Origin: a virus
Direction: 5' to 3' (one strand)
Length of the DNA stretch: 41,611 bases
Virus record (IMG/VR): IMGVR_UViG_3300046012_000432
Span: 1-41,611 of that record
The notes under the pieces were generated by a model. That model ran no database searches, was not told the DNA's origin, and saw nothing but the letters and a program-made list of their open reading frames with translations. Numbering within the stretch: position 1 is the first letter of the stretch; each line of letters opens with the position of its first letter. Made by a program: the position numbers and the translations under genes. This document shows positions 64-36,044 of this stretch, one piece after another.

Positions 64-69
64 GATAGA
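64..69 (+). promoter_or_regulatory. GATAGA start-linked element before terminase
   Basis: GATAGA preceded by CTC ends 7 bases before the GTG at 77. No Shine-Dalgarno sequence lies in the gap. This is copy 1 of the recurrent CCGATAGRC element, read here as a -10 box for a leaderless transcript. Bases 1-63 otherwise show no gene. Confidence 0.6.
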
Positions 70-76
70 CGGGTTC

Positions 77-1921
77 GTGACGACACGGCGCCGCCATCTC
101 CACGCCGTCGGCGACGCTGACGAGGAGAAGCGCGGCCGTGGCCGTCCGAGTAAGACGCTGCAGCAGCACGTCGACGACGGCACCTTCGAACGCCGCAAGC
201 ACGAGGAGCTGCTCGCCGGCGACGGTTTGGTCGCCGACGCTGACCTGAAGAAGCTGCAGCAGCGCTACCGGCGGCTGAAGACGGAGTCGAAGCGGGGCGA
301 GGTCGCGCTCGAGTTCGAACGGCTCGCCCGTGCGCGCGCGCCCGAGCGTCAGCGTCAGGATGCCGACGAGATCGCCGCCCGCATCCGGCGGCTCGGGCCG
401 CCGCGGTCAGCGAAACGCACGATCGGGTTCTTCGAGGAGTTCTACGTCTGGGACGACGGCTCGCCGTGGCGCCTCGACCCCTGGCAGAAGGACTGGCTGC
501 GCGACTGGAAACGGCGCGACCGCAGCGACCGGCTGCTCTACCGCGAGGGGCTGCTCGGGATCTGCCGCGGCCAGGGTAAGACGCCGATCGCCTCCGGGCT
601 GAACACGGAGGAGATCGCGACCGCCGAGACGCGCAGCTACGCGTTCCAGATCGCCGGCTCGAAGCTGCAGGCCTCACTCGGAACCGAGTACGCGAGCAAC
701 TGGGTCGACGACGGCGACCTCGGCAAGATCCTGCAGGCGCGCAAGAACAGCGTCGTGCGCCGCGACGGTCGCGGCTCTTTCACGGTGCTCTCATCCGACG
801 GCCGTCTCGCGCACGGCCGCCGCGGCCGGATCAAGGCGATCGCCGACGAGCTCTGGCTCTACAAGAGCTACGCGGAGGAGCAGGCCTACGTCGCGCTCGA
901 GTCGGCGCTGCACAAGGATCCCGAGTCGCAGCTGCTCGGGATCTCGACCGCCGGCTACAACCTCCGCTCGCTGCTCGGCCGCAAGTACCGGCGAGGCCTC
1001 GCCTGCCCCCAGATCGTCACGAAGCGCGAGGGCTTCCTGACGATCGGCCGCGACCCCGAGGCCGGGTTCCTCATGTGGTGGTTCGGGATGCCGCAGGGCT
1101 ACGAGCTCGACCTCGAGGACGACGCCGCGGTCATGCGCGCGCTGAAGCTGGCGAACCCCGGCTCCTGGACCGACCACCGCGAGCAGCTCCGCTCGCTCCG
1201 CCGCGCGATGAACGGCGAGCTCGAGGAGGGCGACGAGGTGCAGGACGAGCTCGAGTGGCTGCGTCTCTGCCTCAATTACTGGACGCCCGTGCGGGGGCTC
1301 TGGCTGAAAGCCGGCACCTGGCGGTCGCTCGCCGATCCGAATGTGCAGATCCCCGCGCACGCGGAGATCTACGTCGCCGTCGACGCGGCGCACAGCTACG
1401 ACACGACCGCCGTCGCCTGGGCCTGGCTCAACCCGGACGGCAAAGTCGTCGAGCGTTGCAAGATCTTCTCCGTCCGCGCCGGCGCGCCCGCGCACGTTCA
1501 CGTCGACGACTTCTACGGGCCCGACGGCGTCCACGTCGCCGAACGGTTCATCAACGACGAGCTCGCCGGCCGCTACAAGGTGCGGGAAGTCGTCGGCGAC
1601 CCGAACTACTTCGGCGCCGAGCTCGCCCGGCTCGGGAAACGGTTCCTGACCGCGCCAGTCTTCCCGCAGAGCAAGGACATGCGCGGATACGTGCAGCGGT
1701 TCTACCGCGACGTCCACGGCCATCAGATCATCACCGACGGCGACCTGATCGTCACCGAACACGTGGAGGCGATCGCCGGCGAGAAGACCGGGGACGGCTA
1801 CTGGTCGATCCGGAAGCTGCACCAGTCGCAGCCGATGGACGGCGGCACCGCCCAGATCATCGCGAACGGCCGCGCGCGCAGCCGAGAACAGGCCGCGAAG
1901 CCGTGGGCGGCACGCTGGTGA
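77..1921 (+). CDS. Terminase large subunit
   Basis: This is the DNA-packaging motor (ATPase plus nuclease) of the Terminase_1 type, acting at the portal of the procapsid. The 614-residue protein has a Walker A-like motif, CRGQGKT, near residues 162-168. A Walker B-like segment, AIADELW, lies near residues 253-259. The C-terminal nuclease domain shows acidic motifs YVAVDAAHSYD and VVGDPNYFGAEL. The first ~130 residues are basic and coiled-coil-like (RGRPSKTLQQHVDDGTFERR) and precede the ATPase core. No separate small terminase gene is visible, so this extension may supply that role (inference). GTG at 77 is chosen because it sits 7 bases after GATAGA and keeps the conserved RGRPSKTL region. 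An HNH gene at the other end of the window would lie just upstream if the ends are joined. Confidence 0.93.
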   Translation: MTTRRRHLHAVGDADEEKRGRGRPSKTLQQHVDDGTFERRKHEELLAGDGLVADADLKKLQQRYRRLKTESKRGEVALEFERLARARAPERQRQDADEIAARIRRLGPPRSAKRTIGFFEEFYVWDDGSPWRLDPWQKDWLRDWKRRDRSDRLLYREGLLGICRGQGKTPIASGLNTEEIATAETRSYAFQIAGSKLQASLGTEYASNWVDDGDLGKILQARKNSVVRRDGRGSFTVLSSDGRLAHGRRGRIKAIADELWLYKSYAEEQAYVALESALHKDPESQLLGISTAGYNLRSLLGRKYRRGLACPQIVTKREGFLTIGRDPEAGFLMWWFGMPQGYELDLEDDAAVMRALKLANPGSWTDHREQLRSLRRAMNGELEEGDEVQDELEWLRLCLNYWTPVRGLWLKAGTWRSLADPNVQIPAHAEIYVAVDAAHSYDTTAVAWAWLNPDGKVVERCKIFSVRAGAPAHVHVDDFYGPDGVHVAERFINDELAGRYKVREVVGDPNYFGAELARLGKRFLTAPVFPQSKDMRGYVQRFYRDVHGHQIITDGDLIVTEHVEAIAGEKTGDGYWSIRKLHQSQPMDGGTAQIIANGRARSREQAAKPWAARW

Positions 1922-1931
1922 GCTTCCGACC

Positions 1932-1937
1932 GATAGA
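1932..1937 (+). promoter_or_regulatory. GATAGA start-linked element
   Basis: CCGATAGAC whose hexamer ends 6 bases before the ATG at 1944. There is no purine-rich ribosome site between them. Copy 2 of the recurrent element. Confidence 0.6.
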
Positions 1938-1943
1938 CGCAGC

Positions 1944-2171
1944 ATGAAGTGGCGCCGCACGGCTGAACCTCATGTCCGCGGACTCGTGCGTCTTCACATG
2001 AAGAAGGACCCGCGGAGCTTCGAGGGTCTGCTGGTCGAGATCGTCGAGGGTCACTATCGGCTCGCGAACGCGCGGCTGCTCGTGAACACGAACCGCGTCG
2101 ACGACATCCCGATCGACGGCGACACGTTCGTGCCGTGTGGCGACGTGCATTACGCGCAGAAGGTCGGCTAG
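1944..2171 (+). CDS. Small virion-cluster protein, unknown
   Basis: A 75-residue protein between terminase and portal. Alternating hydrophobic and polar residues (FEGLLVEIVEGHYRLANARLL, then IPIDGDTFVPCGDV) suggest a small beta-barrel. Its stop TAG directly abuts the portal ATG, so the two are probably translationally coupled. The ATG is 6 bases after GATAGA. I do not recognise a family. A head-assembly accessory role is inferred from position only. Confidence 0.75.
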   Translation: MKWRRTAEPHVRGLVRLHMKKDPRSFEGLLVEIVEGHYRLANARLLVNTNRVDDIPIDGDTFVPCGDVHYAQKVG

Positions 2172-3536
2172 ATGATCGTCAAGAGCGGCGGCTCTGACCG
2201 GCAGGTCAAGTCGATCCTCGACCAGTGGCCCTACCCGGTGATTCCGCCGGAATTCGGCCTCGGCCTCAATGGCGTCGCCGGCGACCCGTTCTGGCCGTTC
2301 ATGTCGATGGAGCAGGCGATGGGGCTGCCCGCGCTGCTCGGTGTGCTGCTCAGGATCTCGACCGCCTGCGGGATGCTGCCGCAGAAGGTCTACGAGGGCG
2401 ACGACCAGCTGAACCGGCGCGCCGCCACCGACTCGTGGCAGTACGACCTGCTGCACGACCGGCCCGGCGAGGAACACACACCGTTCACGCTGCGCGCGGA
2501 CATCGCGCTCGGCGTCGCCGGCGCCGGCTACTCCTGCATCCGCAAGTACAAGGTTCCCGACCGCACCGTGCCGGGCGGCCAGCGTGTCGCCGAGCTGCTG
2601 CCGCTCGACTCGCGTCTCGTCAAGCCGAAGCGCGTCAACGGCCGTCTCGTGTTCGAGGACCGCACCGAGGGCGAGCTCGTCACCCGCGACCGCTCCGAGA
2701 TCATCTACGTGCGCGCGCCCGCATCGAACGGCGGCGTCGAAGGATTGGCTCCGATCACCCTCACCCGGATGGGAATCTCGACCGGGCTGAAACGGCAGAT
2801 CTTCGAGGGCGGCTACTACGACAAGTCAGCCGAGCCAAGGGTCGTGCTCGCGTTCCCCGAACAGATGCAGCCCGACCAGGCGGAGGAGTGGCGGGAGCTC
2901 TGGAACGACCAGCACCAAGGGCTCGCGAACATGCACGGCACCTCGGTGATCGGCGGCGGCGCGACCGTCAGCACGATCCCGGTGTCGCTCGCCGACGCGA
3001 TGTTCGTGCAGGCGACAAACCAGACCGCCGACCAGATCGGGTTCATCTACGGGATGCCGAAGGTGTTCATGAACACCGTCGAGCGGCCGACGATCACCGA
3101 CAACGACTGGCGCTACTTCGTCACCTTCGGGCTCGGCTGGATCATGGCCGCCGTCGACCAGGCATTCACCGCCGACCGCGACCTCTTCCCGGCCGGTGCC
3201 GGTCGGATGCACGTCGAGACGATCACCGACGCGCTCCTCAAGCCCGACATCCAGACCCGCTACGGCGCCTACCTCGTCGCCCGGCAGGCAGGCTGGCTCA
3301 CCTCGAACGAGATCCGCGCCCTCGAGAACTACCCGCCCGTGCCAGGCGGCGACGTGCTGCAGATCACCCCTGTCGGCGCAGGCGTCGACAACACCGGCAC
3401 CTCCGCCAACGAGGCCGCCGCAAAAGCGCTCGATCTGATCCTCGACGACTTCAAGGACGCAACCCCGGAACAGCGGCAGATCCTGGAGCGGATCTCGCAG
3501 CGCGCCCGCGAGCTCGCGCCGATAGGCACCGCGTGA
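2172..3536 (+). CDS. Portal protein, HK97 family
   Basis: The portal forms the dodecameric ring at the capsid vertex through which DNA is packaged and to which the tail connects. Its 454 residues fit the usual 400-500 of the HK97/SPP1-like family. Recognisable features are the N-terminal stretch about active vertex assembly, the central LLPLDSRLVKPKR and IIYVRAP segments, and the helix-rich C-terminal part (DQIGFIYGMPKVF, then a Gln/Glu-rich tail). The ATG begins directly after the preceding stop codon. Its own stop overlaps the GTG of the protease gene by four bases. The gene order terminase-portal-protease-capsid is the standard HK97 order. Confidence 0.93.
   Translation: MIVKSGGSDRQVKSILDQWPYPVIPPEFGLGLNGVAGDPFWPFMSMEQAMGLPALLGVLLRISTACGMLPQKVYEGDDQLNRRAATDSWQYDLLHDRPGEEHTPFTLRADIALGVAGAGYSCIRKYKVPDRTVPGGQRVAELLPLDSRLVKPKRVNGRLVFEDRTEGELVTRDRSEIIYVRAPASNGGVEGLAPITLTRMGISTGLKRQIFEGGYYDKSAEPRVVLAFPEQMQPDQAEEWRELWNDQHQGLANMHGTSVIGGGATVSTIPVSLADAMFVQATNQTADQIGFIYGMPKVFMNTVERPTITDNDWRYFVTFGLGWIMAAVDQAFTADRDLFPAGAGRMHVETITDALLKPDIQTRYGAYLVARQAGWLTSNEIRALENYPPVPGGDVLQITPVGAGVDNTGTSANEAAAKALDLILDDFKDATPEQRQILERISQRARELAPIGTA
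3521..3526 (+). promoter_or_regulatory. GATAGG start-linked element inside portal 3' end
   Basis: GCCGATAGGC lies in the last codons of the portal gene and ends 6 bases before the GTG at 3533. In the portal frame it uses ATA (Ile), a rare codon in this GC-rich genome, so the DNA element seems to be kept despite the coding cost. Copy 3. Confidence 0.6.
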
Positions 3537-4525
3537 AGACCCGCGGGCCCGGTTACGACACGCTCGATTTCAAGTTCGAGCTGAAGAGCCTCGACGACGC
3601 CGGCGAGCTCGAGGGCTACGCCGCGGTCTTCGGGAACGTCGACCTCGGCGGCGACGTGATCGAGCAAGGCGCGTTCACGAAAAGCATCCAGGAGTCAGGC
3701 GGCCACGTGCCGATCCTCTGGCAGCACGACCGCTACGAGCCGATCGGTGTGTCCACCTCGCTCGAGCAGGACCGCAAAGGTCTGCTCGTCAAGGGGCAGC
3801 TGAACATGGACGTACAGCGCGCCCGTGAGGCCCGCGCGCTCCTCAACCAGGGGGCCCTACAGGGCCTGTCGGTCGGCTACAAGAGCGTCAAGCACGTCTT
3901 CGACGGCCCAGTTCGGCGGCTGAAGGAGATGTCGCTGAAGGAGTTCTCGCCCGTCGTGTTCCCGATGAACGAGCTCGCGCTTGCCTCGGTGAAGGGCGCC
4001 GGCGACATCATCTGGGAGCCCGAGTCCGGCTTCAACGACCTGATGTCGGATCTCTGCGAGCTGCTCAACCCCGGCTCGCCCCCGAACCGCTTCTGGGTCA
4101 GCGACATCGCGATCGACCTCTCGCACGCGATCGTGCGCGACTACGACGCCAACGAGGCGTGGGTGGTGCCGATCAGCATCGACGACAACGGCGAACCGTC
4201 GATCGCGCCTGCCTCCGACTGGGTAGAGGCCGAGCAGGCATGGGTCGCGGCCGTCGACGAGCCGGGCAAGGCCGCGTTCGCGATCGCGAACGCCTACAAG
4301 ATTTCGGCGACCCGCCAGCAGGCCAAAGAGGGTCGCATGTTCAGCAACGCCAACCTGGCGACGCTGAAGGAAGCGCACGAACGGATCGCTGCACTCCTCG
4401 AGCTCGCGCAGCCGGCAAACGCCACTGCGGACGACGACGGAGCCGCAAAGCACGCAGAGATGCCGGCCCTCGCGGCCACTCTCCGCGACTCCATCACGTC
4501 AATTTTCGAAGGAGGAACACAGTGA
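3533..4525 (+). CDS. Prohead protease with C-terminal extension
   Basis: This is the maturation protease of HK97-like heads (peptidase U35/S78 type), which digests the capsid delta domain and itself. The catalytic His is probably H65 in LWQHDR, and the Ser is S113 in GLSVGY. The protease fold ends near residue 150 at SPVVFPMNELA. A further ~180 residues follow. They include a compact segment (RFWVSDIAIDLSHAIVRDYD, then WVVPISIDDNG) and a helical Ala/Glu-rich tail, which may act as an internal scaffold (inference). The family is usually about 200 residues, so 330 is long. The start GTG overlaps the portal stop (GTGA) and follows GATAGG by 6 bases. Confidence 0.9.
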   Translation: MKTRGPGYDTLDFKFELKSLDDAGELEGYAAVFGNVDLGGDVIEQGAFTKSIQESGGHVPILWQHDRYEPIGVSTSLEQDRKGLLVKGQLNMDVQRAREARALLNQGALQGLSVGYKSVKHVFDGPVRRLKEMSLKEFSPVVFPMNELALASVKGAGDIIWEPESGFNDLMSDLCELLNPGSPPNRFWVSDIAIDLSHAIVRDYDANEAWVVPISIDDNGEPSIAPASDWVEAEQAWVAAVDEPGKAAFAIANAYKISATRQQAKEGRMFSNANLATLKEAHERIAALLELAQPANATADDDGAAKHAEMPALAATLRDSITSIFEGGTQ

Positions 4526-5769
4526 GCACACAGCTCGAAGAGCTCAAGGAGCTCGGCGACGGCATCAAGTCGACCTTCGAGGAGTGGAAGAAGGTCGACG
4601 CCGAGCGCGCCGAGGAGATCAAGAAATTCGGAGAGGCGACCGCCGAGACGCAGCAGAAGTTCACCGCGCTCGACGACCGGATCGACGAGCTCGACGTTCG
4701 CATGCAGAAGTCGCGCCTCGACGGCGGCCGCGGCGAGCTCGACCTCGACCAGCCGCAGGTGAAGGCGTTCGAGAAGCTGATCCGCTTCGGCCCGGTCGGG
4801 ATGACCGAGGACGAGATGAAGCACGTCACGCTCGCGACCAAGCAGGGCGACGAGCTCTACACCAAGACGATGACGGTCGGAGACGACACGACGGGCGGGT
4901 TCCTCGCGCCGGTCGAGATCGTCAACGAGCTGATCAAGGGCATCGTGCTCTTCAGCCCGATCCGCAACGTCGCGAACGTCCGCCAGACGTCGTTCAACTC
5001 GATCAAGGCGCCGAAGCGCACGCAGACGTCTTCGGCGGTCTGGGTCGGAGAGATCGACTCGCGCAGCGAGACCCAGAACGTGAAGTTCGGCAAGGAAGAG
5101 ATCTCGACGCGCGAGCTGTCGGCGATGGCCGACATCTCCCGGCAGGATCTCCAGGACGCAGCGGTCAACCTCGACCAGCTCGTCTATGCCGACTTCGAGG
5201 AGCAGTTCGGCGTCTCCGAAGGGCTCGCGTTCGTCTCCGGCGACGGCGTCGACGGCAAGCCCGAAGGGATCCTGACCGCATCCGACCAGGGCTTCCTCGG
5301 CTCGAACGGCATCGAGACCGTCGCGTCCGGCGCGGCGACCGCGATCAGCGGCGACGACCTGATCGAACTGTTCTACCGCCTCAAGGACGGCTACGCGCGC
5401 AACGCGTCGTGGCTGATGAAGCGCGGCACGGTCAAGGTCGTCCGGCAGCTGAAGGAGACCTCGACGGACAACTACCTGTGGCAGCCCGGTCTGGCCTCGG
5501 TAGCTCCGCCGACGATCCTCGACCGCCCGTACGTCGAGACCGTCGACATGCCCGGCCCGAGCTCCGGAGCGACGTTCACGACCGGCGACCTGCCGATCGC
5601 GTTCGGCGACTTCAAGCGCGGCTACTGGATCGTCGACCGCCTCGCGCTGCAGACCCTCCGCGACCCCTACACGCAGGCCGGCAACGGCTACCTGCGCATC
5701 TGGGCGTACAAGCGGGTCGGCGGCCAGGTCGTGCTCCCCGAGGCCATCAAGCTCCTCCGCGTCGCCTAG
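4522..5769 (+). CDS. Major capsid protein, HK97 fold
   Basis: This 415-residue protein is the main shell subunit. Residues 1-~75 are a charged helical delta domain (LEELKELGDGIKSTFEEWKK) normally removed by the protease. The mature part begins around the TKTMTVGDDTTGGFLAPVEI segment, a typical HK97 gp5-like N-arm. SGDGVDGKPEGIL is the characteristic family motif, and the P-domain and A-loop regions follow. The GTG start overlaps the protease stop (GTGA). A strong Shine-Dalgarno site, GAAGGAGGA, at 4508-4516 sets the start, in contrast with the GATAGR-led genes. High expression is expected. Confidence 0.94.
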   Translation: MSTQLEELKELGDGIKSTFEEWKKVDAERAEEIKKFGEATAETQQKFTALDDRIDELDVRMQKSRLDGGRGELDLDQPQVKAFEKLIRFGPVGMTEDEMKHVTLATKQGDELYTKTMTVGDDTTGGFLAPVEIVNELIKGIVLFSPIRNVANVRQTSFNSIKAPKRTQTSSAVWVGEIDSRSETQNVKFGKEEISTRELSAMADISRQDLQDAAVNLDQLVYADFEEQFGVSEGLAFVSGDGVDGKPEGILTASDQGFLGSNGIETVASGAATAISGDDLIELFYRLKDGYARNASWLMKRGTVKVVRQLKETSTDNYLWQPGLASVAPPTILDRPYVETVDMPGPSSGATFTTGDLPIAFGDFKRGYWIVDRLALQTLRDPYTQAGNGYLRIWAYKRVGGQVVLPEAIKLLRVA

Positions 5770-9188: not shown

Positions 9189-9227
9189 GAACGGGAATCG
9201 AGTCTCGGGTGCGCCCGTCGACCGCCC

Positions 9228-9233
9228 GATAGA
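9228..9233 (+). promoter_or_regulatory. GATAGA start-linked element before connector genes
   Basis: CCCGATAGAC ends 8 bases before the ATG at 9242, in a 53-base gap after the lectin gene. No Shine-Dalgarno sequence is present. Copy 4, placed to start the connector/tail transcript. Confidence 0.62.
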
Positions 9234-9241
9234 CGAACGCG

Positions 9242-10757: not shown

Positions 10758-10770
10758 GCCAGCCGCCGCC

Positions 10771-10776
10771 GATAGG
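10771..10776 (+). promoter_or_regulatory. GATAGG start-linked element before tail genes
   Basis: GCCGATAGGC ends 8 bases before the ATG at 10785 in a short 27-base gap. Copy 5. It precedes the small gene that leads into the major tail protein. Confidence 0.6.
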
Positions 10777-10784
10777 CGCGGGCG

Positions 10785-16492: not shown

Positions 16493-17674
16493 GTGTCCTG
16501 GACCTATCTTCTGTGCGACAAGGACAGCGACGCGGAGCTCGCGGACCTGACCGAGTGGTCACTCACGAAGAAGATCTCAGCCAGGCTGAACCGGCCGCTC
16601 TCGACGGTGCTGACGATCCCCGGTGACACGGCCGCGATCCGCGACTCAAGCTTCGACGGCCGCCCGAACCTCGAGGTGGGACGGCGCACGATCAAGGCCT
16701 ACCAGGACGGGGTGCTCCGCGGCCACACGCTCGTCTGGAACATCGGCCCCTCCGGCGACGAAAACCAGACGTCGGTGATGGTCACCGGCTACGACCCCAT
16801 GATGCTGCTCCCGAAGCGGCTCGTCCAAGAGTCCGACGGCACCTTCGCGAACCCGCAGTTCGCATCGCCGATCACGGGCGCCGAGATCCTGCAGCAGGTG
16901 ATCGACAACACCGTCTCAAACGACGGCCCCCTGCCGATCGACACCTCCGGCGCGATCTCCTCCTCGACCGACCTCGCCGCCGACCTCACGAACTGGCCGA
17001 CCACGATCGGCGACCTCTTCACGATGCTCACCGACACCGGCGTCCTAGACGTCCAGATGGCGCCCGTCGACACACACACAGGATTCCCGGCCGGGATCAT
17101 GGCGCAACTGCTCGTCGCGGACGAACTCGGCGCTGACCTCACCGACAGCGTCCACTTCGACTACGCGACCGGCGACTTCTCCGTCGCGAACATCCGCCGC
17201 AGCTTCGACATGGACGAGCTCTGCAACAAGCTCTGGTACTACCTCGGCCCCCGCATCGACGACACCCACTACCGCGGCAACATCACGGCCACCGAAGCAG
17301 GCCTCGAAACCTACGCCGCGCTCCAGCTCGCCTCGCGCGACCTCTACGGCGTGTACATGGACGCACGGATCTACGACGACACCGACGTCGAGTCCGACGC
17401 GAGGCCGCTCTTCCACCGGCTCTGGAAGACGGAGGTGCAGCTGCGCGTCAACCCGCGCGAGCTCCTCTACGTTCAGCCCGCCGCCGGCGACGGCTGCCCC
17501 TTCCGGCCGTTCATCGACTACAACCCCGGCGACCGCGTCAGCGTCAACGCCGCCGACATCGTCGGCCCAGCGATAGACGGAGCCGTGCAACGGATCTACG
17601 GCTTCGACGTCGACGAGGACCAGGACGGCATCGAACGCGCCTCCGAGCTGATCGTGAGCGCAGCGGATGAGTAA
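16493..17674 (+). CDS. Tail tip/baseplate hub-like protein (ReqiPepy6 gp37-like)
   Basis: A 393-residue protein similar in layout to the 'Siphovirus ReqiPepy6 Gp37-like' family of tail proteins. The N-terminal beta part is WTYLLCDKDSDAELADLTEW, with TIKAYQDGVLRGHTLVWNIG. Middle and C-terminal strands include VQLRVNPRELLYVQP, FIDYNPGDRVSVNA and QRIYGFDVDEDQDGIERASE. It probably forms the hub at the tail tip. The GTG start is 11 bases after the previous stop and lacks a clear ribosome site. The last 8 bases overlap the next gene. Confidence 0.78.
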   Translation: MSWTYLLCDKDSDAELADLTEWSLTKKISARLNRPLSTVLTIPGDTAAIRDSSFDGRPNLEVGRRTIKAYQDGVLRGHTLVWNIGPSGDENQTSVMVTGYDPMMLLPKRLVQESDGTFANPQFASPITGAEILQQVIDNTVSNDGPLPIDTSGAISSSTDLAADLTNWPTTIGDLFTMLTDTGVLDVQMAPVDTHTGFPAGIMAQLLVADELGADLTDSVHFDYATGDFSVANIRRSFDMDELCNKLWYYLGPRIDDTHYRGNITATEAGLETYAALQLASRDLYGVYMDARIYDDTDVESDARPLFHRLWKTEVQLRVNPRELLYVQPAAGDGCPFRPFIDYNPGDRVSVNAADIVGPAIDGAVQRIYGFDVDEDQDGIERASELIVSAADE

Positions 17675-18365: not shown

Positions 18366-18376
18366 ACCTGCGGGCC

Positions 18377-18382
18377 GATAGA
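18377..18382 (+). promoter_or_regulatory. GATAGA start-linked element before lysis cassette
   Basis: GGCCGATAGACC ends 7 bases before an ATG at 18390. A second GATAGAC lies 16 bases upstream at 18361-18367, overlapping the stop of the tail gene. Copy 6, doubled. Confidence 0.6.
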
Positions 18383-18389
18383 CCGCACC

Positions 18390-18838: not shown

Positions 18839-18853
18839 AACGCGCGTCGCGCC

Positions 18854-18859
18854 GACAGA
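18854..18859 (+). promoter_or_regulatory. GACAGA variant of start-linked element before endolysin
   Basis: GCCGACAGAC, one base off GATAGA, ends 6 bases before the GTG at 18866. An ATG at 18861 lies inside the gap but opens an out-of-frame ORF. Copy 7. Confidence 0.5.
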
Positions 18860-18865
18860 CATGGC

Positions 18866-19747: not shown

Positions 19748-19756
19748 GCGCCAGCC

Positions 19757-19762
19757 GATAGG
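19757..19762 (+). promoter_or_regulatory. GATAGG start-linked element before holin-like gene
   Basis: GCCGATAGGC ends 7 bases before the ATG at 19770, in the 22-base gap after the endolysin stop. Copy 8. Confidence 0.6.
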
Positions 19763-19769
19763 CGCGCGC

Positions 19770-21761: not shown

Positions 21762-21776
21762 AATCTATGACCTGTC

Positions 21777-22160
21777 ATGTTGGTCGGCGTGCTCGTCGGA
21801 ACCTTCAACCCGAAGCGCCTCGAGAGGGCCATCCAGGCCAAGGGGCTGACGGCCGCGGACCTCGCCTATGAGATGCGCCGCACCTCTGGCGGTAGGTTGA
21901 AGACGACCGAGAGCCAGGTCTACAAGTGGCTCCGCGGCGACCACGTTCCGACGATCGGCGCGCTTGCCGTCGCGGCGCGCGCGACCGATGTCACGACCGA
22001 CTCGCTCTTCGAGCACGACGAAGACGACGAGGAGAAGGCTCGAGCTATGCGCCTCAACCGCATCCGGGTCGAGCTCGCGCGCACGGGGCGCACTGATCTG
22101 GTCGCGGACCTGAACGCGCTCGCCGGCGCCGGCGCCGGCGCGACGGACGGCTGGCTATGA
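21777..22160 (+). CDS. XRE-family regulator opposite the repressor
   Basis: A 127-residue protein with a helix-turn-helix in residues ~10-60 (RLERAIQAKGLTAADLAYEM; ESQVYKWLRGDHVPTIGALA). An acidic patch EHDEDDEE and a helical tail with an AGAGAG repeat follow. It is probably the rightward-promoter regulator (Cro-like or activator). The exact start is uncertain: ATG 21777 is first, but a few codons could be trimmed. The stop overlaps the next ATG (ATGA). Confidence 0.75.
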   Translation: MLVGVLVGTFNPKRLERAIQAKGLTAADLAYEMRRTSGGRLKTTESQVYKWLRGDHVPTIGALAVAARATDVTTDSLFEHDEDDEEKARAMRLNRIRVELARTGRTDLVADLNALAGAGAGATDGWL

Positions 22161-26500: not shown

Positions 26501-26775
26501 TGCCCGCCGCCGGCGCGCGCTCAGGCACACGTCCCTCGCGCGCAGCGCGCGGCGCCGGCAGCGGCACGATCGGCGACCGGATCGGGCTGACGTGCGGCCA
26601 CACGACCGACGAGCAGCCGATCGCGAAAGGCCAGACCTTCGCGCTCTACCAGTGCCCGCGCGGTTGCGGGCTCGTCAAGCGCGCACCACGTGCGCGCACA
26701 ACCGAACGAAAGGAGGAGCGTCGTGACAGCTACGGCGACCAAAGACGCTCAGAAGAAGGAAGCCCCGCTCGTTGA
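26500..26775 (+). CDS. Small zinc-binding-like protein
   Basis: A 91-residue protein with GLTCGHTTDEQPIAKGQT followed by FALYQCPRGCGLVKRAP, a probable zinc ribbon. The basic C-terminus overlaps the start of the ParB gene by 53 bases and could be shorter in practice. Function is unknown. Confidence 0.5.
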   Translation: MPAAGARSGTRPSRAARGAGSGTIGDRIGLTCGHTTDEQPIAKGQTFALYQCPRGCGLVKRAPRARTTERKEERRDSYGDQRRSEEGSPAR

Positions 26776-28129
26776 GTACCACGAGCTGCACGTCGAATCA
26801 CTCGCCGTTGTAGGCGACAACGTTCGCAGCAACGTCGGCGACGTCACCGAGCTCGCCGCGTCGATCAAGGAGCAGGGGCTGATCCAGCCGATCGTCGCGA
26901 CGATGCGCGCGATCGTCGACGAGAACGGCGAGGACGACCTCGGCGTCCGCTTCGTCGTCGTCGCCGGCCACCGCCGCCTCGCCGCCGCGAAGCTCGCAGG
27001 CCTCGAGAAGGTGCCGGTGATCCTCCGGACGATGGACGAGCAGCAGCGCATCGAGGCGATGCTCGTCGAGAACCTCGACCGCACAGACATCAGCCCGCTC
27101 GACGAGGCCCGCGGCTACCAGAGGCTCACCGACGAATTCTCGCTCAGCCAGCGCGACATCGCCGCGAAGATGGGACGGTCGCAGGGGCACATCTCGAAGC
27201 GGCTCGTCCTGCTCGAGCTGCCTGAGGAGATCCGCAAACGGGTCGATTCCGGCGGAATCACAATCTCGGACGCAGTCGAGCTCGCGAAGCTCAAAGACCA
27301 CCCTGCCCATCTCCGCGGTGCGGCGACGACGAACGCCTGGGAGACAATCCCCGGCAACGTCACCAAGGCGCTCGATGAGCTGAAGCGCGAGAAGCTGCTG
27401 ACGACGAAGCAGGAGCAGCTCGAGTCAAAGGGCCTCGCGACCGTCCGCGTCTCCAGCCGCTACCAGCTGCCGACGAAGATCCATCGGATCAACGACGGCA
27501 CGATCGCCGGCGACCCGCACGCGCTGCCGATCACCCCGGCCGATCACGCGAAGCACTCATGCCACGCGATCGCGCTCTTCATCAACCACGTCGGCAAGGT
27601 CGAAGAGTTCCCGGTCTGCACCGACCGCAAGCAGCACCCCGGCCTCAAGACACGCCAGGAGAAGCCCGCGCGCGGCTCGACCGCGCCGCATCCGCTCCAG
27701 AAGGAACGGGAGGCACTCCGCGAAGCCGAGACCGCACGGCGGACGTTCAGGCGCGAGCTGCTCAAGCGCAAGCTGCCCAAGGAGGAGATGCTCGACCGGA
27801 TCTTCCTCTCGATCATCGACACCGCGATGGAGATGTCTGACGACCAGCTGATCGTGAACTCGATGATCACGCTCGGCCTCGCGAACGAAGAGGACGAAGC
27901 GGTCAACGAAGCCGACCTCCGCGGCTACGCGCTCGAAGGGCCGGCACAGCTACTCCGCGCAGCGTTCGCTGTCGCGCTCGCGCAGAGCGACGACTACGCG
28001 CTTAACGAATGGGCGACGAACTGGGGCGAAGGGGCCGCCTCCTACCTCGCATTCCTCGAACGGCACGGCTACGAGGCCACCGCCGCCGAAAAGAAGCGAC
28101 TCCGGTCTGTCCTCAAGGCCGCGTCGTGA
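26723..28129 (+). CDS. ParB-like DNA-binding protein
   Basis: A 468-residue ParB/Spo0J-type protein. An N-terminal ParB nuclease-like domain (LAASIKEQGLIQPIVATM) carries the nucleotide-pocket motif AGHRRLAAAKLAG near residues 80-92. VENLDRTDISPLDEARGYQR follows. A helix-turn-helix lies near residues 139-167 (LSQRDIAAKMGRSQGHISKR). The C-terminal ~250 residues are specific to this protein. A strong ribosome site, GAAAGGAGGAG, precedes GTG 26723. No ParA gene is present, so partition as a ParAB system is doubtful. DNA bridging or gene regulation is more likely, perhaps with the HerA-like ATPase. Confidence 0.83.
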   Translation: MTATATKDAQKKEAPLVEYHELHVESLAVVGDNVRSNVGDVTELAASIKEQGLIQPIVATMRAIVDENGEDDLGVRFVVVAGHRRLAAAKLAGLEKVPVILRTMDEQQRIEAMLVENLDRTDISPLDEARGYQRLTDEFSLSQRDIAAKMGRSQGHISKRLVLLELPEEIRKRVDSGGITISDAVELAKLKDHPAHLRGAATTNAWETIPGNVTKALDELKREKLLTTKQEQLESKGLATVRVSSRYQLPTKIHRINDGTIAGDPHALPITPADHAKHSCHAIALFINHVGKVEEFPVCTDRKQHPGLKTRQEKPARGSTAPHPLQKEREALREAETARRTFRRELLKRKLPKEEMLDRIFLSIIDTAMEMSDDQLIVNSMITLGLANEEDEAVNEADLRGYALEGPAQLLRAAFAVALAQSDDYALNEWATNWGEGAASYLAFLERHGYEATAAEKKRLRSVLKAAS

Positions 28130-28344
28130 AGGACTGCCCGGTTCCCGGCTGCGGCACGCGGATCGACAGCTCTCTGCTGATGTGCAGCCCGCACTGGTGG
28201 TCGGTGCCGAAGTCGCTCCGCAACCGCGTCTGGACGACGGTTCGCAAAGGCGTGCTCGACGACCGCTACCGCGACGCCGCGGCCGCCGCAATCTCGGCCG
28301 CGACCGAAAAGGCCGGGACGACCCCGGTCAGGGAGTACGCCTGA
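28126..28344 (+). CDS. Small zinc-binding-like phage protein
   Basis: A 72-residue protein with KDCPVPGCGTRIDSSLLMC followed by SPHWWSVPKSLRNRVW. The C...C...C..HW...P..LR pattern is common in short actinophage proteins and suggests one zinc site. A helical tail follows. GTGA upstream and TGATG downstream show coupling. Confidence 0.68.
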   Translation: MKDCPVPGCGTRIDSSLLMCSPHWWSVPKSLRNRVWTTVRKGVLDDRYRDAAAAAISAATEKAGTTPVREYA

Positions 28345-28598
28345 TGGAGATCCTCATCAACGGCAAGGTTCCTTCGACCTGTGAGCTGCGCGGCTGCGAC
28401 CGCCCGGCCGTCGCAACACTGATTGCTCATCCCCTGAAACGTCACGCCGTCGGCGGCTGCTCATCGGTGTGCGCCGACCACCTCGAAAAGGCGTGCGCGA
28501 TGGTCGCGCGTGCGTTCCTGATCTCGAACAAGCTCCTCGAGCCCGCCGACGACCGCGAACGTGACTACCTCGCGGTGCTCGAGGAGCACATCGCGTGA
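28344..28598 (+). CDS. Small Cys/His protein, unknown
   Basis: An 84-residue protein with CELRGCDRPA and CADHLEKACAM, suggesting a structural zinc. The C-terminus is helical. It is encoded directly before the HerA-like gene and overlaps it by GTGA. Confidence 0.63.
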   Translation: MEILINGKVPSTCELRGCDRPAVATLIAHPLKRHAVGGCSSVCADHLEKACAMVARAFLISNKLLEPADDRERDYLAVLEEHIA

Positions 28599-30448
28599 GC
28601 GAGCTCCGGATCTCATCGCGGCTGGCGTTGCCGATCCAGGTGGCGGGCGAGTCGACGGCGATCCTGGCGAAGAAAGGCGCGGGGAAGTCGAACACCGCGA
28701 AGGTGATCGTCGAGGAGGTTCTCGACCACGGCGGCGTCCAGGTCGTCGTGCTCGACCCGATCGGCCACTGGTGGTCGCTGCGCGCCGGCGCCGACGGGAA
28801 GCCGAAGGGCGGCTACCCGGTCGCGGTGTTCGGCGGGATGCACGGCGACCTGCCGTTGGAGCCGACCGCCGGCGCGCTGCTCGCTCAGACCGCCGTCGAG
28901 TCGGGCCAGTCGATCATCCTCGACGTCTCCTCGCTCGACTCGAACGGCGCGATGCAACGGTTCGTGTACGAGTTCCTCGAGGAGCTGTACAAGCTCAAGC
29001 AGCGTGTCCCGACACCAACGCTGCTCGTGCTCGAGGAGGCCGACGAGTTCGCGCCGCAGGACCCGAAGGGCACGAACGTGCCGCGGATGGTCGGCGCCGC
29101 GAACCGGATCTCGAAACGCGGCCGCGGCCGCGGCATCGGGATGCTCTACGTCACGCAACGCTCGGCCGCCCTGAACAAGAACGTCCTCGACCAGGCCGAC
29201 ACGCTGATCGTGATGCGCACGATCGGGCCGCGCGACCGGACGGCGATCGAGGGCTGGGTCAAACACCAGGACGCCGCCGGCATGGAAGACGTCCTCCCGT
29301 CGCTGCCCGGCCTCGAGACCGGGGAGGCGTGGGTCTGGACCCCCGAACGGCAGCTGCTCGAACGGGTGAAGATCCGCAAGGCCCGCACCTTCGACTCCTC
29401 GCTCACCCCGAAGCCCGGCCAGGCAGCGGTCGTCGCGAACGTGAAACCGATCGACGTCGACGCGCTCGGCGCCGCGATCAAAGCAACCGCCGAGAAGGTC
29501 AAAGCCAACGACCCGCGCGAGCTGCAGAAACGACTCCGCGAGCTCGAGCGCGAATCGCACGACCGGCTCGCACGCATCCGCGAGCTCGAGGTCGACCGCG
29601 AGCCCGAGACCGTCGAGACGACGGTCGAGGTTCCGGTGCTCAGCGACGAGGAGCGCGAGCTCCTCACCGGCGTCGCGCGCACGATCAACGAGTCGCTCGC
29701 GCGAGCGCAGCAGGCATCCGACGCGCTCGTCGAGCTGCTCTCCGACATCCCCGCCCGCATCGACGCGGGACACAACACGAAGGAGAACAAGCAATGGTCG
29801 AGATCCCGATCAACCTCGCCGCCCCAGGCTGGCGCTGCAAGCTCTGGCGGCTCGCATACCGGCTCGCGGGCCGCTGCCCCTGCGGCGACAGCTCCGCCGC
29901 CGGCTGGCGGACGCCGCGCTGCGCCGACTGTCTCGAGGCCGACTGGCGCGACTGAGAACGTCTCCGCGCCGCAGCAGCGGATCCTGAACGCGCTCGCCGC
30001 GCTCGAGCAGATCGGAGTCGCCGCGCCCGACAAGACGCAGCTCGCGCTGTTCGCCGAGGCCTCGCCGAAGTCGTCGAGCTACTCGAACAACCTCGGCCAC
30101 CTGAACAACCAGCTCGGGCTGATCCGCTACCCGCAACCCGGACGGGTGCAGCTCACAGACGACGGCCGGAAGCTCGCCAACCCAGGCGGCGCACCGCAAA
30201 CCGTCGACGAGCTCCACCGATACGTCGCCGGCCTCGTCGGGCCTGCGAAGTGGCGGCTCCTCGAGCAGCTCATCCTCGCCTACGACGCGCCGCTCACCAA
30301 GGCCGACCTCGCCGAGCGCGCAGGCGCCTCGGCGACGTCGTCGAGCTTCTCGAACAACCTCGGCTCGCTCCGCTCGCTCGGCCTGATCGACTACCCGTCG
30401 CCCGGCGAGATCGTCGCGCTCCCGGTGCTCTTCATGGAGGGCACATGA
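28595..30448 (+). CDS. HerA/FtsK-like ATPase with two C-terminal winged helices
   Basis: A 617-residue protein. The Walker A motif is GAGKSNTAK (G28-S32 region) and Walker B is LLVLEEADEF near residues 143-152. RGIGMLYVTQRSAALNKNVL is a sensor/arginine segment typical of HerA (DUF87) ATPases. A coiled coil with KRLRELERESHDRLARIREL follows. A Ser/Pro/Gly linker spans residues ~400-455, then come two similar winged-helix units. These contain the twin motif SSSYSNNLGHLNNQLGLIRY and SSSFSNNLGSLRSLGLIDY. It probably moves or organises DNA. A small ORF with its own ribosome site is nested in the linker. Confidence 0.82.
   Translation: MSELRISSRLALPIQVAGESTAILAKKGAGKSNTAKVIVEEVLDHGGVQVVVLDPIGHWWSLRAGADGKPKGGYPVAVFGGMHGDLPLEPTAGALLAQTAVESGQSIILDVSSLDSNGAMQRFVYEFLEELYKLKQRVPTPTLLVLEEADEFAPQDPKGTNVPRMVGAANRISKRGRGRGIGMLYVTQRSAALNKNVLDQADTLIVMRTIGPRDRTAIEGWVKHQDAAGMEDVLPSLPGLETGEAWVWTPERQLLERVKIRKARTFDSSLTPKPGQAAVVANVKPIDVDALGAAIKATAEKVKANDPRELQKRLRELERESHDRLARIRELEVDREPETVETTVEVPVLSDEERELLTGVARTINESLARAQQASDALVELLSDIPARIDAGHNTKENKQWSRSRSTSPPQAGAASSGGSHTGSRAAAPAATAPPPAGGRRAAPTVSRPTGATENVSAPQQRILNALAALEQIGVAAPDKTQLALFAEASPKSSSYSNNLGHLNNQLGLIRYPQPGRVQLTDDGRKLANPGGAPQTVDELHRYVAGLVGPAKWRLLEQLILAYDAPLTKADLAERAGASATSSSFSNNLGSLRSLGLIDYPSPGEIVALPVLFMEGT
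29794..29955 (+). CDS. 53-residue ORF nested in the HerA-like gene
   Basis: ATG 29794 follows GAAGGAGAAC, a good ribosome site, and opens the +1 frame inside the ATPase linker. The product (MVEIPINLAAPGWRCK; RCPCGDSSAAGWRTPRCADC) has a CxC...CxxC cluster. The overlapping ATPase stretch is low-complexity, as expected if the nested frame is the one under selection. Alternatively it is chance in GC-rich DNA. Confidence 0.5.
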   Translation: MVEIPINLAAPGWRCKLWRLAYRLAGRCPCGDSSAAGWRTPRCADCLEADWRD

Positions 30449-31153: not shown

Positions 31154-31481
31154 TGGAACCGGCCCTGACGTGTGTAGGCCATCTGAAAACTCGGAGAAAA
31201 CTCCGGGCGATCAGCGAGCGGTAACCGGCCAGGACGGCCGCAACGAGCGGACACCGTCAGTGTTCCCGTCCCGTCGTCGTGTACTCGGTTGGCGCTGCGC
31301 CTGGGGCTTTCACGTGTGGCGTCCGAGGTCGATATGCGGGCGTGACTACGGCGTCAGCAAGTACCGCGCCTGGGAGATTTACAGCGTTTGCGACCGTTGC
31401 CACTCAGAGGAGAGCTACTTCGAGCGGAACCGTGTCATGGCACAGGCGATGGCCGACTACATCGGCGCGGTACTTCCATGA
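31146..31481 (+). CDS. Small zinc-binding-like protein before integrase 1
   Basis: 111 residues from GTG 31146, or 73 from the in-frame GTG at 31260, which better fits the conserved-looking part. That part reads LGWRCAWGFHVWRPRSICGR and EIYSVCDRCHSEESYF, a likely single zinc site. The N-terminal 38 residues are polar and may be untranslated. It overlaps integrase 1 by ATGA. Confidence 0.55.
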   Translation: MCDGTGPDVCRPSENSEKTPGDQRAVTGQDGRNERTPSVFPSRRRVLGWRCAWGFHVWRPRSICGRDYGVSKYRAWEIYSVCDRCHSEESYFERNRVMAQAMADYIGAVLP

Positions 31482-32671
31482 GCGGAATGCTAACCGGCCT
31501 GGGCGGACGCATACCCGTGACCGCCGAAACTGAAAGCGGCCAGGGAACGGATCTTGTGACCGTGCTCGAGCAGCGCGTGTCGCTCGCGGCGACGCTCGCG
31601 AATCCGAACATCACGCTCGCGCGCGCTTGCGCCACCTACCTGCTCTACAAGCAGCGCCGCCTGACCGCCGCGTCGAGGCGCGGCTACCAGGCGGTCGTCG
31701 ACCAGCTGACGAAGAACCATCCGGGCGCGAAGCTCTCCGATTTCGAACCTCCCAACGGGACGTTCTTGCTCGAGGACTTCATGAACGGCCTCTGGGGTCT
31801 GAGCGCGCCGCGCACCTACAACAAGAGCCACTCGATCCTCTCCGACCTCTTCAAGTGGCACGTCGCCCGCGGCACGCTGCTGCGCGACCCGATGGCGACG
31901 ATCGAGCGGGCGAAGACACGGCCCGTCCCTCACCGGGTCTTCACTGACGCGGAGATCGTGCAGATCCTGGCGCGCAACACGTCGGCGCGCGATCAGATCG
32001 CACTCCGGCTGCTGCTCTTCTTCGGGATCCGCAAGGGCGCGCTCCGCGGCATCAGGTTCGAGCACTTCAACCCCGATCGGCGGCAGCTGATCGTCTTCAC
32101 GAAGGGCGAGAAGTTTCACACGCTCCCGATCGTTGACGACACGGTCTGGAAGCTGCTCGACGAGCTGCACGAGCCCGCGGAGCACTACCTGCTTCCGAAG
32201 CAGAAGAGCCGCAAGCGTGTCCCCCCGACCCGCCGGCAACTGCGCGAGCTCGGCGACGCGCTGCGCACGGCCCAGGCCGTGCTGCCCCTCGCGGCGGCCG
32301 ACCCGTTCTGCGCCGGCGAGCTCGCCGACGTCCTGGACGCCTTTCAGATGGCGGACGTGCGTCTGAAGGTCGCCGTCCAGGCGGCATCGACGCAGTCCAG
32401 GGTCGAACCGACGGAGCCGATCGGGGAGCACGGAGCGCACCTCTGGTGGTACCGATGCCTCGCCCGCGCCGGCGTCGTCTCGACGGGCGTCACCGCGGGC
32501 CGGAGGATGCACGGTGCGAGACACACAAGCATCCAGCGCGTCCTCGAGCGCACCGGCAACCTTCGCGCGGCGCAGACGCTCGCGGGCCACGCCACCGTGT
32601 CGACCACCGAGCTCTACACAGACTGGAACGAACAGCTCGAGCAGACGATGCGCGAGGTGCTCGGCCGGTGA
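31478..32671 (+). CDS. Tyrosine recombinase 1
   Basis: A 397-residue tyrosine recombinase. An N-terminal core-binding domain (residues ~45-150) precedes the catalytic domain. Catalytic residues seen are Arg in FFGIRKGALRG (about R185), Lys in FTKGEKFHTLP, and the HxxR box in MHGARHTSIQR (about H345/R348). They continue with His in AGHATVSTTELY and Tyr about Y380. About 60 extra, Ala-rich residues lie between the Lys hairpin and HxxR. No obvious arm-binding domain is seen at the N-terminus. It may be a second integrase, a resolvase or a Xer-like enzyme. Confidence 0.85.
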   Translation: MSGMLTGLGGRIPVTAETESGQGTDLVTVLEQRVSLAATLANPNITLARACATYLLYKQRRLTAASRRGYQAVVDQLTKNHPGAKLSDFEPPNGTFLLEDFMNGLWGLSAPRTYNKSHSILSDLFKWHVARGTLLRDPMATIERAKTRPVPHRVFTDAEIVQILARNTSARDQIALRLLLFFGIRKGALRGIRFEHFNPDRRQLIVFTKGEKFHTLPIVDDTVWKLLDELHEPAEHYLLPKQKSRKRVPPTRRQLRELGDALRTAQAVLPLAAADPFCAGELADVLDAFQMADVRLKVAVQAASTQSRVEPTEPIGEHGAHLWWYRCLARAGVVSTGVTAGRRMHGARHTSIQRVLERTGNLRAAQTLAGHATVSTTELYTDWNEQLEQTMREVLGR

Positions 32672-32790
32672 AGCGGGCCGCCCGTAGTGCCCTTTCCTGG
32701 ACCGACGTCGCGCTGTACGCGTTCGCGACCGCGATCGCCGTCGCGGTGACGATCGCGGCGGTCGTTATCGAGCTGTGGTTGAACGCGTGA
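32668..32790 (+). CDS. 40-residue membrane peptide
   Basis: A GTG start overlaps the integrase stop. A single membrane helix (DVALYAFATAIAVAVTIAAV) makes up most of the product. It overlaps the excisionase start by GTGA. Role unknown. Confidence 0.5.
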   Translation: MKRAARSALSWTDVALYAFATAIAVAVTIAAVVIELWLNA

Positions 32791-33002
32791 GCGACGATCG
32801 TCTTTTGGTCGCTGCCGAGGTGGCGGAGTTGCTGAGCGTAAAGGAGTCGTGGGTGCGCGAGCACACCCGCAACGGCGATATCCCGCACAAGCAGCTCGGC
32901 CGGTATCTGCGGTATGACAGGGCTGAGGTTCTCGAGTGGCTCGGTCGCCAGTCTGCGGGCGGCGACAGGGCCGCTCGCGGCGGCGGGCTTCGTGCCGCCT
33001 AG
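32787..33002 (+). CDS. xis: Excisionase-like HTH protein
   Basis: A 71-residue MerR-type/HTH_17 protein (LLVAAEVAELLSVKESWVRE, then QLGRYLRYDRAEVLEWLGRQ). Proteins of this type act as recombination directionality factors or transcription regulators. It lies between two tyrosine recombinase genes, which favours a role in excision. The start GTG at 32787 overlaps the preceding stop. Confidence 0.75.
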   Translation: MSDDRLLVAAEVAELLSVKESWVREHTRNGDIPHKQLGRYLRYDRAEVLEWLGRQSAGGDRAARGGGLRAA

Positions 33003-33018
33003 CGTTCGTCGTCTGCTC

Positions 33019-34272
33019 ATGTCAGGCTCGGCGTCGATGGCAGCGCGCAGGACCGGCAGCGTGGTCGTTTACGAGGGCAGGCGCGGCCGCGTGTTCCGGC
33101 TGCGCTATCGGGACGCCGAGGGGGAGCGGATCGTCGAGACGCTCGGGCTCGAGCAGGACGGCTGGACCGCAACCAAGGCGGAGGCCGAGCTCCGCGATCG
33201 CCTCGTCGACGTGAAGCGAGAGCGGCGGCGGAAGATCCGGCCGGCCACGTTCGGCGACTTCGCGCTGCACTGGCTCGAGACCTACCCGGAGGCGCGCGGC
33301 TTGAAGAAGTCGACGCGAGTCGCCTACCGCACGATCGTGAAGCGCCACCTGATCCCTGTGCTCGGCGACGTCCGTCTGGAGCTCGTCGACCTTGACCGTG
33401 TCGAGGAGTACGTCGCGGCGAAGCGGAAGGCCGGCCTTGGACCCGCGACGATCAACCGGCACCTGAACCTCCTAAACCTTCTCTTCGTCGCGGCGATCAA
33501 GCGTGGCGCGGTGCGGGCGAACGCGAACCCGGTGCCGCTGGTCGAACGTCCGAAGGAGCCGCGGCGCCGCTGGACGATCCTGACGCCGGCGGAGATAGCT
33601 CGTGTCGCGAACGCATTCGAGGAGCTCGCCGCAGCCGCGCCGCTCGAGGGGCCGAAGCTCGAGGAGACGCGCCTGTGGATCGAGCAGGCACGCGTCGTGT
33701 TCCTCGTCGTCGTCGCGTGCGGTCTCCGGCGCGGCGAGATCCTCGGCCTCCGGTGGCGGCACGTCGACCTCGTCGACATGGTGATGCGGATCGAGGAGAC
33801 CTGGGTCGCCGGCCAGGTCGACACACCGAAATCCGAGGCTGGCGAGCGCACGGTCGCGTTCGGGCAGGTGGTTGCGGACGAGCTCTGGCAGCAGCGGCGC
33901 CGCTCGAGGTTCCAGGGTGACGACGAGCGTGTCTTCTGCCACCCGACGAAGGGCTCGCCGATCGATCCGACCCTCTACGCACTGACGCTCCGCCTCGCGC
34001 TCAAGCGTGCGAGCGTCACCCGGAAGATGCGGCCGTTCCACGATGGCCGCCACACCGCGATCACGAACGACGCGAAGTCGGGAAACGCCCCCGTGTCGAT
34101 CCAGACGCGTGCCGGCCACTCGTCCTACTCGACGACGCAGCGCTACATCGACCTCGCCGGCGTCGTCTTCCGCGAGGAAGCGGACAGGCTCGACGAGCAC
34201 CTCTTCGGAGTCCGAGACGAGAAGGAACGCGACGAAAAACGACCGGCGCGGCGAGATGATCGCGCGCTCTGA
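33019..34272 (+). CDS. int: Tyrosine recombinase 2, probable phage integrase
   Basis: 417 residues from ATG 33019. The N-terminal arm-type domain (SVVVYEGRRGRVFRLRYRDA) precedes a SAM-like core domain (TFGDFALHWLETYPEARGLK) and the catalytic domain. Catalytic residues are Arg in CGLRRGEILGLRW (about R237), Lys in TPKSEAGERTV, HDGRH (about H341, R344), His in AGHSSYSTTQ and Tyr in RYIDL (about Y376). The arm domain and complete catalytic set fit the enzyme that acts at the attP-like site at 35302-35544. ATG 33037 is an alternative start. Confidence 0.88.
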   Translation: MSGSASMAARRTGSVVVYEGRRGRVFRLRYRDAEGERIVETLGLEQDGWTATKAEAELRDRLVDVKRERRRKIRPATFGDFALHWLETYPEARGLKKSTRVAYRTIVKRHLIPVLGDVRLELVDLDRVEEYVAAKRKAGLGPATINRHLNLLNLLFVAAIKRGAVRANANPVPLVERPKEPRRRWTILTPAEIARVANAFEELAAAAPLEGPKLEETRLWIEQARVVFLVVVACGLRRGEILGLRWRHVDLVDMVMRIEETWVAGQVDTPKSEAGERTVAFGQVVADELWQQRRRSRFQGDDERVFCHPTKGSPIDPTLYALTLRLALKRASVTRKMRPFHDGRHTAITNDAKSGNAPVSIQTRAGHSSYSTTQRYIDLAGVVFREEADRLDEHLFGVRDEKERDEKRPARRDDRAL

Positions 34273-34605: not shown

Positions 34606-34612
34606 CGAAGTT

Positions 34613-34644: not shown

Positions 34645-34686
34645 ATGTCACCACACACGAGCCGTTCACGTAATCGCTAGGTAGCT

Positions 34687-35324: not shown

Positions 35325-35375
35325 GCTGGCGAGGTCTCCTGGTCAGACTCGACCGCGCGGCGGGAAAGTCCTGCA

Positions 35376-35469
35376 CGGAGCGGCCCCGGAGTCGAACCGA
35401 GCCAGCCTGGGGTTGCCAGACCTGACGAGTTTTGAAGGCCCGCGGGAGCCGACCCACCGTCGCGATTCC
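35376..35469 (-). other. tRNA-Sec-like fragment, probable attP core
   Basis: On the minus strand this 94-base stretch has the 3' features of tRNA-Sec. The T-arm is CTCGG-TTCGACT-CCGGG. The 3' acceptor strand is GCCGCTCC with discriminator G. A 6-bp long variable arm is present (GTCTGG/CCAGGC with one G-T pair). The anticodon loop CTTCAAA has anticodon TCA. The 5' side is degenerate: GGAATCGC pairs with only 6 of 8 acceptor bases, counting one G-T pair, and the anticodon stem has a C-A mismatch. That is expected when attP carries only the 3' part of a tRNA gene, to restore it after integration. Confidence 0.68.
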
Positions 35470-35521
35470 GCTGGAATCAAGCCACGCTGGGTCACGCCCG
35501 ATCGGCTCAGGTCACCTGACT

Positions 35522-35544
35522 GGGGCAAAAGTTCGGGCAAAAGT
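35522..35544 (+). repeat. Arm-type repeat, right (P'-arm candidate)
   Basis: GGGGCAAAAGT followed by T and CGGGCAAAAGT, matching the block at 35302-35324 in 21 of 23 positions and in the same orientation. It lies 52 bases beyond the tRNA-like sequence. Confidence 0.65.
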
Positions 35545-35600
35545 TGAAGCGAGTCGAGACGCCGGCAGGGCGCAATACATCTACGGCGAAGGTCGTTCAC

Positions 35601-35984
35601 ATGACCACATCGCGTGCTCTCAAGCTCGTCCTCGCCGCGTCGATCGCGGCGCTCGCGGTCGCCGGCTTCGCGTTCGCCGGCGGCCCGCCACCCTGGGCCG
35701 GGAACCCGCACCATCCTCCGACCGTCTCGACGGTCACCGTGACGGCCACGGCGCCGACGGTCACTCAGACCGTGACCGCTCCGGCGGCGGCTCCGAGCTC
35801 CCCGTCCTCCTCGTCGAGCAGCTCGAGCAGCAGCTCGAACGCGGCGACGACCGTCGTCGTGAACGTTCCGCCCGCGACCGTCGTCCGCCAGATCGTCGTC
35901 AAGGTGCCGCCGAAAATCGTGCGCGTCCGGCGCTACTGCACGAGGCAGCGCCACGGCTGGCGCTGCACCCCGAAACGGCCCTGA
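35601..35984 (+). CDS. Secreted Ser/Thr-rich protein
   Basis: 127 residues from ATG 35601. A signal peptide (LKLVLAASIAALAVAGFAFA) is followed by Pro- and Thr-rich repeats (TVTVTATAPTVTQTVTAP). An 11-residue Ser run comes next, and a basic C-terminus with two Cys (RRYCTRQRHGWRCTPKR) closes the protein. It is likely exported. Its location just outside attP is typical of lysogenic-conversion genes, but no activity can be assigned. A longer frame reaching 35544 overlaps the arm repeat and is less likely. Confidence 0.65.
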   Translation: MTTSRALKLVLAASIAALAVAGFAFAGGPPPWAGNPHHPPTVSTVTVTATAPTVTQTVTAPAAAPSSPSSSSSSSSSSSNAATTVVVNVPPATVVRQIVVKVPPKIVRVRRYCTRQRHGWRCTPKRP

Positions 35985-36030
35985 TCCTCCGCGCGCGGCC
36001 GCGCGCGCCACGCTCGAATCCGTCGGCCTC

Positions 36031-36036
36031 GATAGA
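36031..36036 (+). promoter_or_regulatory. GATAGA start-linked element before sigma-like gene
   Basis: CCTCGATAGACG ends 8 bases before the ATG at 36045. Copy 9, the only clear copy outside the virion and lysis region. If the encoded protein reads this element, the gene would be autoregulated. Confidence 0.6.
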
Positions 36037-36044
36037 CGCCGGCG

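Follow-up and report, generated by a model that had tools for sequence, protein, structure and literature searches.

The stretch of viral DNA analysed here (IMG/VR record IMGVR_UViG_3300046012_000432; 41,611 nucleotides, referred to as the window) raises the question of why one short sequence recurs a few nucleotides before so many of its predicted gene starts. The original prediction was that nine such starts share a promoter -10 box, placed so that the mRNA would begin at the start codon. The element has the core [CT]CGAYAGRC, with the consensus CCGATAGRC. In a group of uncultured phages, where it stands 6-7 nt before most late-gene starts, it is very probably the promoter for messages that begin at the start codon. 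The sites and the principal genes are collected in Table 1.

Table 1. Copies of the element in the window and the principal genes discussed in the text.
Feature	Position	Strand	Remarks
Element TCGATAGAC	62..70	+	6 nt upstream of GTG 77, terminase large subunit
Element CCGATAGAC	1930..1938	+	5 nt upstream of ATG 1944
Element CCGATAGGC	3519..3527	+	Within portal 3' end; 5 nt upstream of GTG 3533, head maturation protease
Element CCGATAGAC	9226..9234	+	7 nt upstream of ATG 9242, head-tail adaptor
Element CCGATAGGC	10769..10777	+	7 nt upstream of ATG 10785
Extra copy GCGATAGAC	17570..17578	+	Inside gene 16493-17674; no gene start at the expected distance
Element CCGATAGAC	18375..18383	+	6 nt upstream of 14-codon ORF at 18390; next real gene 18443
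Element CCGACAGAC	18852..18860	+	5 nt upstream of GTG 18866, CHAP-like, probable endolysin
Element CCGATAGGC	19755..19763	+	6 nt upstream of ATG 19770, 85-aa holin-like protein
Element TCGATAGAC	36029..36037	+	7 nt upstream of ATG 36045, sigma factor
Terminase large subunit	77..1921	+	phrog_9, E 1e-45
Head maturation protease	3533..4525	+	phrog_80, E 5e-48
Sigma-70 family protein, FliA/WhiG-like region 4 (candidate A)	36045..36623	+	PF04545 1.2e-17; TIGR02937 2e-18; TIGR02479
Divergent sigma region-2-like protein without region 4 (candidate B)	37890..38615	+	Start codon uncertain; homologues in L090 (37%) and G011
ParB-like protein overlapping candidate B	38596..39399	+	TIGR00180 1.3e-9

The sequence CGATAGRC occurs nine times on the forward strand of the window and not at all on the reverse strand. 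Seven of the nine copies lie 5-8 nt upstream of an ATG or GTG that opens a reading frame of at least 50 codons. In 200 genomes simulated with a first-order Markov model such copies averaged 0.085 per genome and never exceeded 1, and the reversed pattern gave no start-linked match. CCGATAGRC is found six times forward and never in reverse, with none in the control. An eighth start-linked site, CGACAGAC, precedes 18866, while the ninth (18377) precedes a mere 14-codon ORF. When both strands were scanned with a matrix trained solely on relatives, eight of the nine predicted sites ranked top. All nine predicted sequences are present where they had been placed. At 18866 the start-linked copy stands, with its sequence corrected as above, and 18390 has to be given up as a real gene start. 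The reported absence of the element from the early region also held, there being no copy between 20 and 36 kb. The pattern originally suggested for scanning, CSNGAYAGRC, was mis-specified and shows no enrichment (3 matches, 5 expected). A chance origin, or an artefact of coding or codon usage, might be imagined in a GC-rich genome with many CGATCG-like sequences, but is effectively ruled out by the Markov-genome test of start-linked copies, by matrices cross-validated in both directions, and by conservation of the element in intergenic and coding contexts of divergent phages.

Several other features of the window may be recorded here. AT-rich palindromic repeats (TTGACAGTCAA and similar) at 21745-21780, immediately upstream of an HTH gene (21777), are likely to be a repressor operator. 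In the non-structural region (26723-30448) a HerA-like helicase/ATPase comes after a ParB-domain protein. Two adjoining tyrosine-integrase-like genes occupy 31388-34272. A tRNA-SeC reported by ARAGORN at 35376-35463 on the reverse strand is probably a false positive.

The genes that carry the element in the window encode the terminase, the protease, the head-tail adaptor, the CHAP-like probable endolysin and the holin-like protein, together with small genes of the head/tail region and the sigma gene at 36045. We regard them as late genes, their timing being inferred, and all gene starts are predictions. The relatives come from metagenomes, as contigs that are in many cases fragments. An alignment of capsid sequences led to L010/L090 (capsid 76%, portal 77% and terminase 45% identical), and terminase alignments recovered more. 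Alignments were needed for this, since scanning viral and genome contigs with a single terminase or sigma sequence gave no match. Known phages have no nucleotide match to 24 kb of the window, and a portal scan of genome contigs was empty, so the host is not identified; plasmids gave only weak, mixed matches to integrase.

The search for the element before the same genes in relatives was successful: it recurs in seven divergent contigs, upstream of terminase, portal, protease and other late genes. In L090, L091 and L092 it precedes the terminase, the small gene that follows and the protease with unchanged spacing, the small gene being an orthologue of 1944 in L090 and L091 and its equivalent in L092. 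In L094, L114 and L119 it precedes portal, protease and other genes. The protease-linked site has equivalents in L090, L091, L092, L094, L119 and a more distant genome, G011 (described below); the site before 10785 is matched before the G011 homologue and before a similar small gene in L119. In L090 one copy has moved to the other strand together with its gene, which encodes a holin-like protein of 81 aa; the holin-like gene of the window (19770) is on the forward strand. L090 also has an HNH endonuclease gene (5254-5580) directly followed by the terminase. In the window the HNH gene (41219-41545) is at the right end and the terminase at the left, and the window is therefore probably a near-complete genome or one that is circularly permuted.

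If the element is a promoter, its type can be examined from the flanking sequence. In 21 aligned sites the information is confined to [CT]CGAYAGRC, with nothing conserved in the 50 bases upstream, and TAAA, TTGACA and TANNNT are all lacking at 38 sites. The flagellar -35 sequence TAAA has no exact occurrence at the right spacing in the 38 sites, and five occurrences with at most one mismatch where about three are expected. Together these observations indicate a -10-only promoter, as in the T4-type late promoter, which has no -35. In two respects the sites also look as expected for a leaderless promoter, namely in the absence of a Shine-Dalgarno site and in a fixed distance between the -10 sequence and the RTG (6.5 +/- 1.0 nt, 39 sites). 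The likeness to the FliA/WhiG -10 that was first remarked on holds only in part: the element shares CCGATA with GCCGATAA, the flagellar/WhiG -10 (PMC8325347), and ends in GRC rather than AA. The absence of TAAA sets it apart from standard FliA/WhiG promoters, and a flagellar promoter with TAAA was rejected. Ordinary leaderless promoters of the host, read by sigma-A through TANNNT, would place their -10 box where the element lies relative to the start codon. However, the final T is found at only 1 of the 38 sites, and the conservation spans CGATAGRC instead; host TANNNT promoters were rejected on this ground and we consider them very improbable.

A sequence so tightly linked to start codons could alternatively act in the RNA, as a translation-initiation signal that replaces the Shine-Dalgarno site and is perhaps bound by a phage protein. 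The genes concerned do lack Shine-Dalgarno pairing, as had been claimed: the mean anti-Shine-Dalgarno energy of the element genes in the window is -1.35 kcal/mol, and that of 22 others is -6.8 (Mann-Whitney p = 0.00025). There is also a precedent in the start-associated sequences of cluster K mycobacteriophages, proposed to act in translation (PMC3203893). The element is distinct from these, in agreement with the original prediction. The 13-bp cluster K motif GGGATAGGAGCCC has four matches in the window at up to three mismatches, where 12.5 are expected, and none is at the element starts; nor, at the energies just given, do the element genes have the AGGAG core. Identity with the cluster K sequence was rejected, its motif being rarer than chance and absent at these starts.

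The choice between RNA and DNA is best made in G011 (IMGVR_UViG_3300037466_001608, 41.6 kb), whose terminase is only 26% identical to that of the window. It has 12 copies of the element, all on the forward strand, of which 10 precede coding starts, and a matrix built from the window alone ranks these 12 sites top. The copy at 4549 stops exactly 6 nt short of the 5' end of a tRNA-Met gene (4563-4636), the same spacing as to start codons. Another, at 38692, lies 78 nt upstream of ATG 38778, whose gene has a strong Shine-Dalgarno site, GGAGG, unlike nearly all other element genes. A third, before ATG 25200, is immediately 3' of a strong hairpin (-26.9 kcal/mol), which leaves room for a promoter of no more than about 24 nt. 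GC-rich hairpins are in fact seen directly upstream of several copies in G011 (L222-L224), as if they were terminators insulating each promoter.

The tRNA copy and the leadered gene with its own Shine-Dalgarno site argue that the element marks the start of an RNA, and both count against a signal in translation, which we judge unlikely. Taken together with the hairpin-abutting copy, they place the RNA start 6-7 nt after the element, mostly at the start codon. The leaderless reading, at first a guess from spacing, thus gains support from the relatives. On the other side, the tRNA is a single case, as is the clearly leadered gene, the G011 capsid gene has a spacing of 10 nt and a Shine-Dalgarno-like GAGG, and the in-gene copy at 17570 and the mini-ORF at 18390 fit poorly.

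It remains to ask what reads the element. The window does encode sigma-like proteins, as predicted. The 36045 protein is a clear sigma factor with FliA and WhiG as its best matches, PDB included. The 37890 protein is divergent, with a weak match to SigI region 2 (E 0.007). Its gene and the ParB-like gene overlap with a +1 shift of frame (37890-39399), the ParB-like gene having a strong Shine-Dalgarno site, and L090 shows the same arrangement (2652-4341). A near-match to the element, GCCGATATGC, lies at 37722-37731, some 160 nt before the 37890 gene. The N-terminal 60 residues of the ParB-like protein may be a detached region 4, which is suggestive only; homology of the window pair to G011 as a fused sigma-2/sigma-4 was likewise suggestive, without reaching significance by BLAST. 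The G011 member of the 37890 family matches TIGR02937 over nearly its full length (8.3e-8 in a genome search), at 26.6 bits, below the curated cut-off of 42.9. Its AlphaFold model is of low confidence (pLDDT 52), and Foldseek returned many sigma factors, none at E <= 0.001.

Sigma-like genes occur in G000, G001, G005 and G011, and L094 has a different, SigH-like sigma. The 37890 family has been seen only in element-bearing contigs (window, L090, G011). No member was found in 10 longer relatives (30-51 kb) that have no start-linked element, nor in G006, G012, G013, G014 and other element-free relatives, although contigs can be incomplete. On this co-occurrence in three contigs we prefer the 37890 family to the 36045 protein as the recogniser, a preference that is not proof. 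The promoter might instead be read by the 36045 sigma, whose own gene carries the element and would then be autoregulated, or by a WhiG/FliA-type sigma of the host, and the match of the CCGATA core to the flagellar/WhiG -10 speaks for this. It is nevertheless rather unlikely, since TAAA is absent and since G011, with its 12 copies, has no region-4 sigma detectable by Pfam, only the 37890-type protein. A doubtful and more elaborate form of the preferred assignment to the 37890 family is recognition of the -10-only promoter by a region-2-only sigma together with a detached region 4, which would be fused to the ParB-like protein of the next, overlapping gene; the promoter would then join the transcription and translation starts of virion genes, lysis genes and one relative's tRNA.

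We consider it likely, with good confidence, that the element is a -10-type late promoter that gives leaderless mRNAs without a -35, and that it is read by host RNA polymerase with a phage sigma factor, the family of 37890-38615 being the best candidate. The RNA would start about 6-7 nt downstream of the element, with the A or G of the start codon as its first base, a position that is inferred because no RNA 5' ends have been mapped. Late mRNAs would then be translated without a Shine-Dalgarno site, which assumes that the host, not identified, translates leaderless messages. No -35 element would be used. Recognition most likely would be by host polymerase carrying the phage-encoded sigma, again by inference, and the lack of region 4 in the 37890 protein and its L090 homologue would fit a promoter with no -35.

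Leaderless mRNAs are common in some bacteria. In a limited search of the open-access literature we found no report of this element, nor of a phage that expresses its late genes from a single dedicated promoter of the leaderless kind. The element offers a simple way, from sequence only, to locate transcription units in uncultured phages. It also ties a divergent sigma family to a likely DNA target, and provides a testable GC-rich counterpart of the T4 late system.

The closest known systems each share part of this arrangement. Mycobacteria efficiently translate mRNAs that start with ATG or GTG (PMC4633059), and the messages predicted here likewise have RTG at the 5' end and no Shine-Dalgarno site; those, however, are host transcripts, and the -10 here is not TANNNT. 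The cluster K start-associated sequences are conserved, have a GATAGG core and immediately precede start codons in a single orientation (PMC3203893), as the element does, but they contain AGGAG, occur in early/non-structural genes and have a proposed translational role (PMC3203893, PMC11373665), whereas the present element precedes late genes and a tRNA and lacks the 13-bp motif. FliA/WhiG promoters share the CCGATA core of their -10 (PMC8325347), and the phage encodes a FliA/WhiG-like sigma; they differ in that the element has no -35 TAAA, has GRC after the core, and keeps a fixed 5-7 nt from start codons. The T4 late promoters (gp55/gp33) are likewise short and -10-only, with no -35, and late transcripts there may have either polarity (PMC2988020). 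The candidate sigma without region 4 in the window and L090 recalls gp55, although no homology to gp55 has been shown, and the element, at which RNA would start on the start codon itself, is a GC-rich CCGATAGRC, in contrast to the TATA-type sequence of T4.
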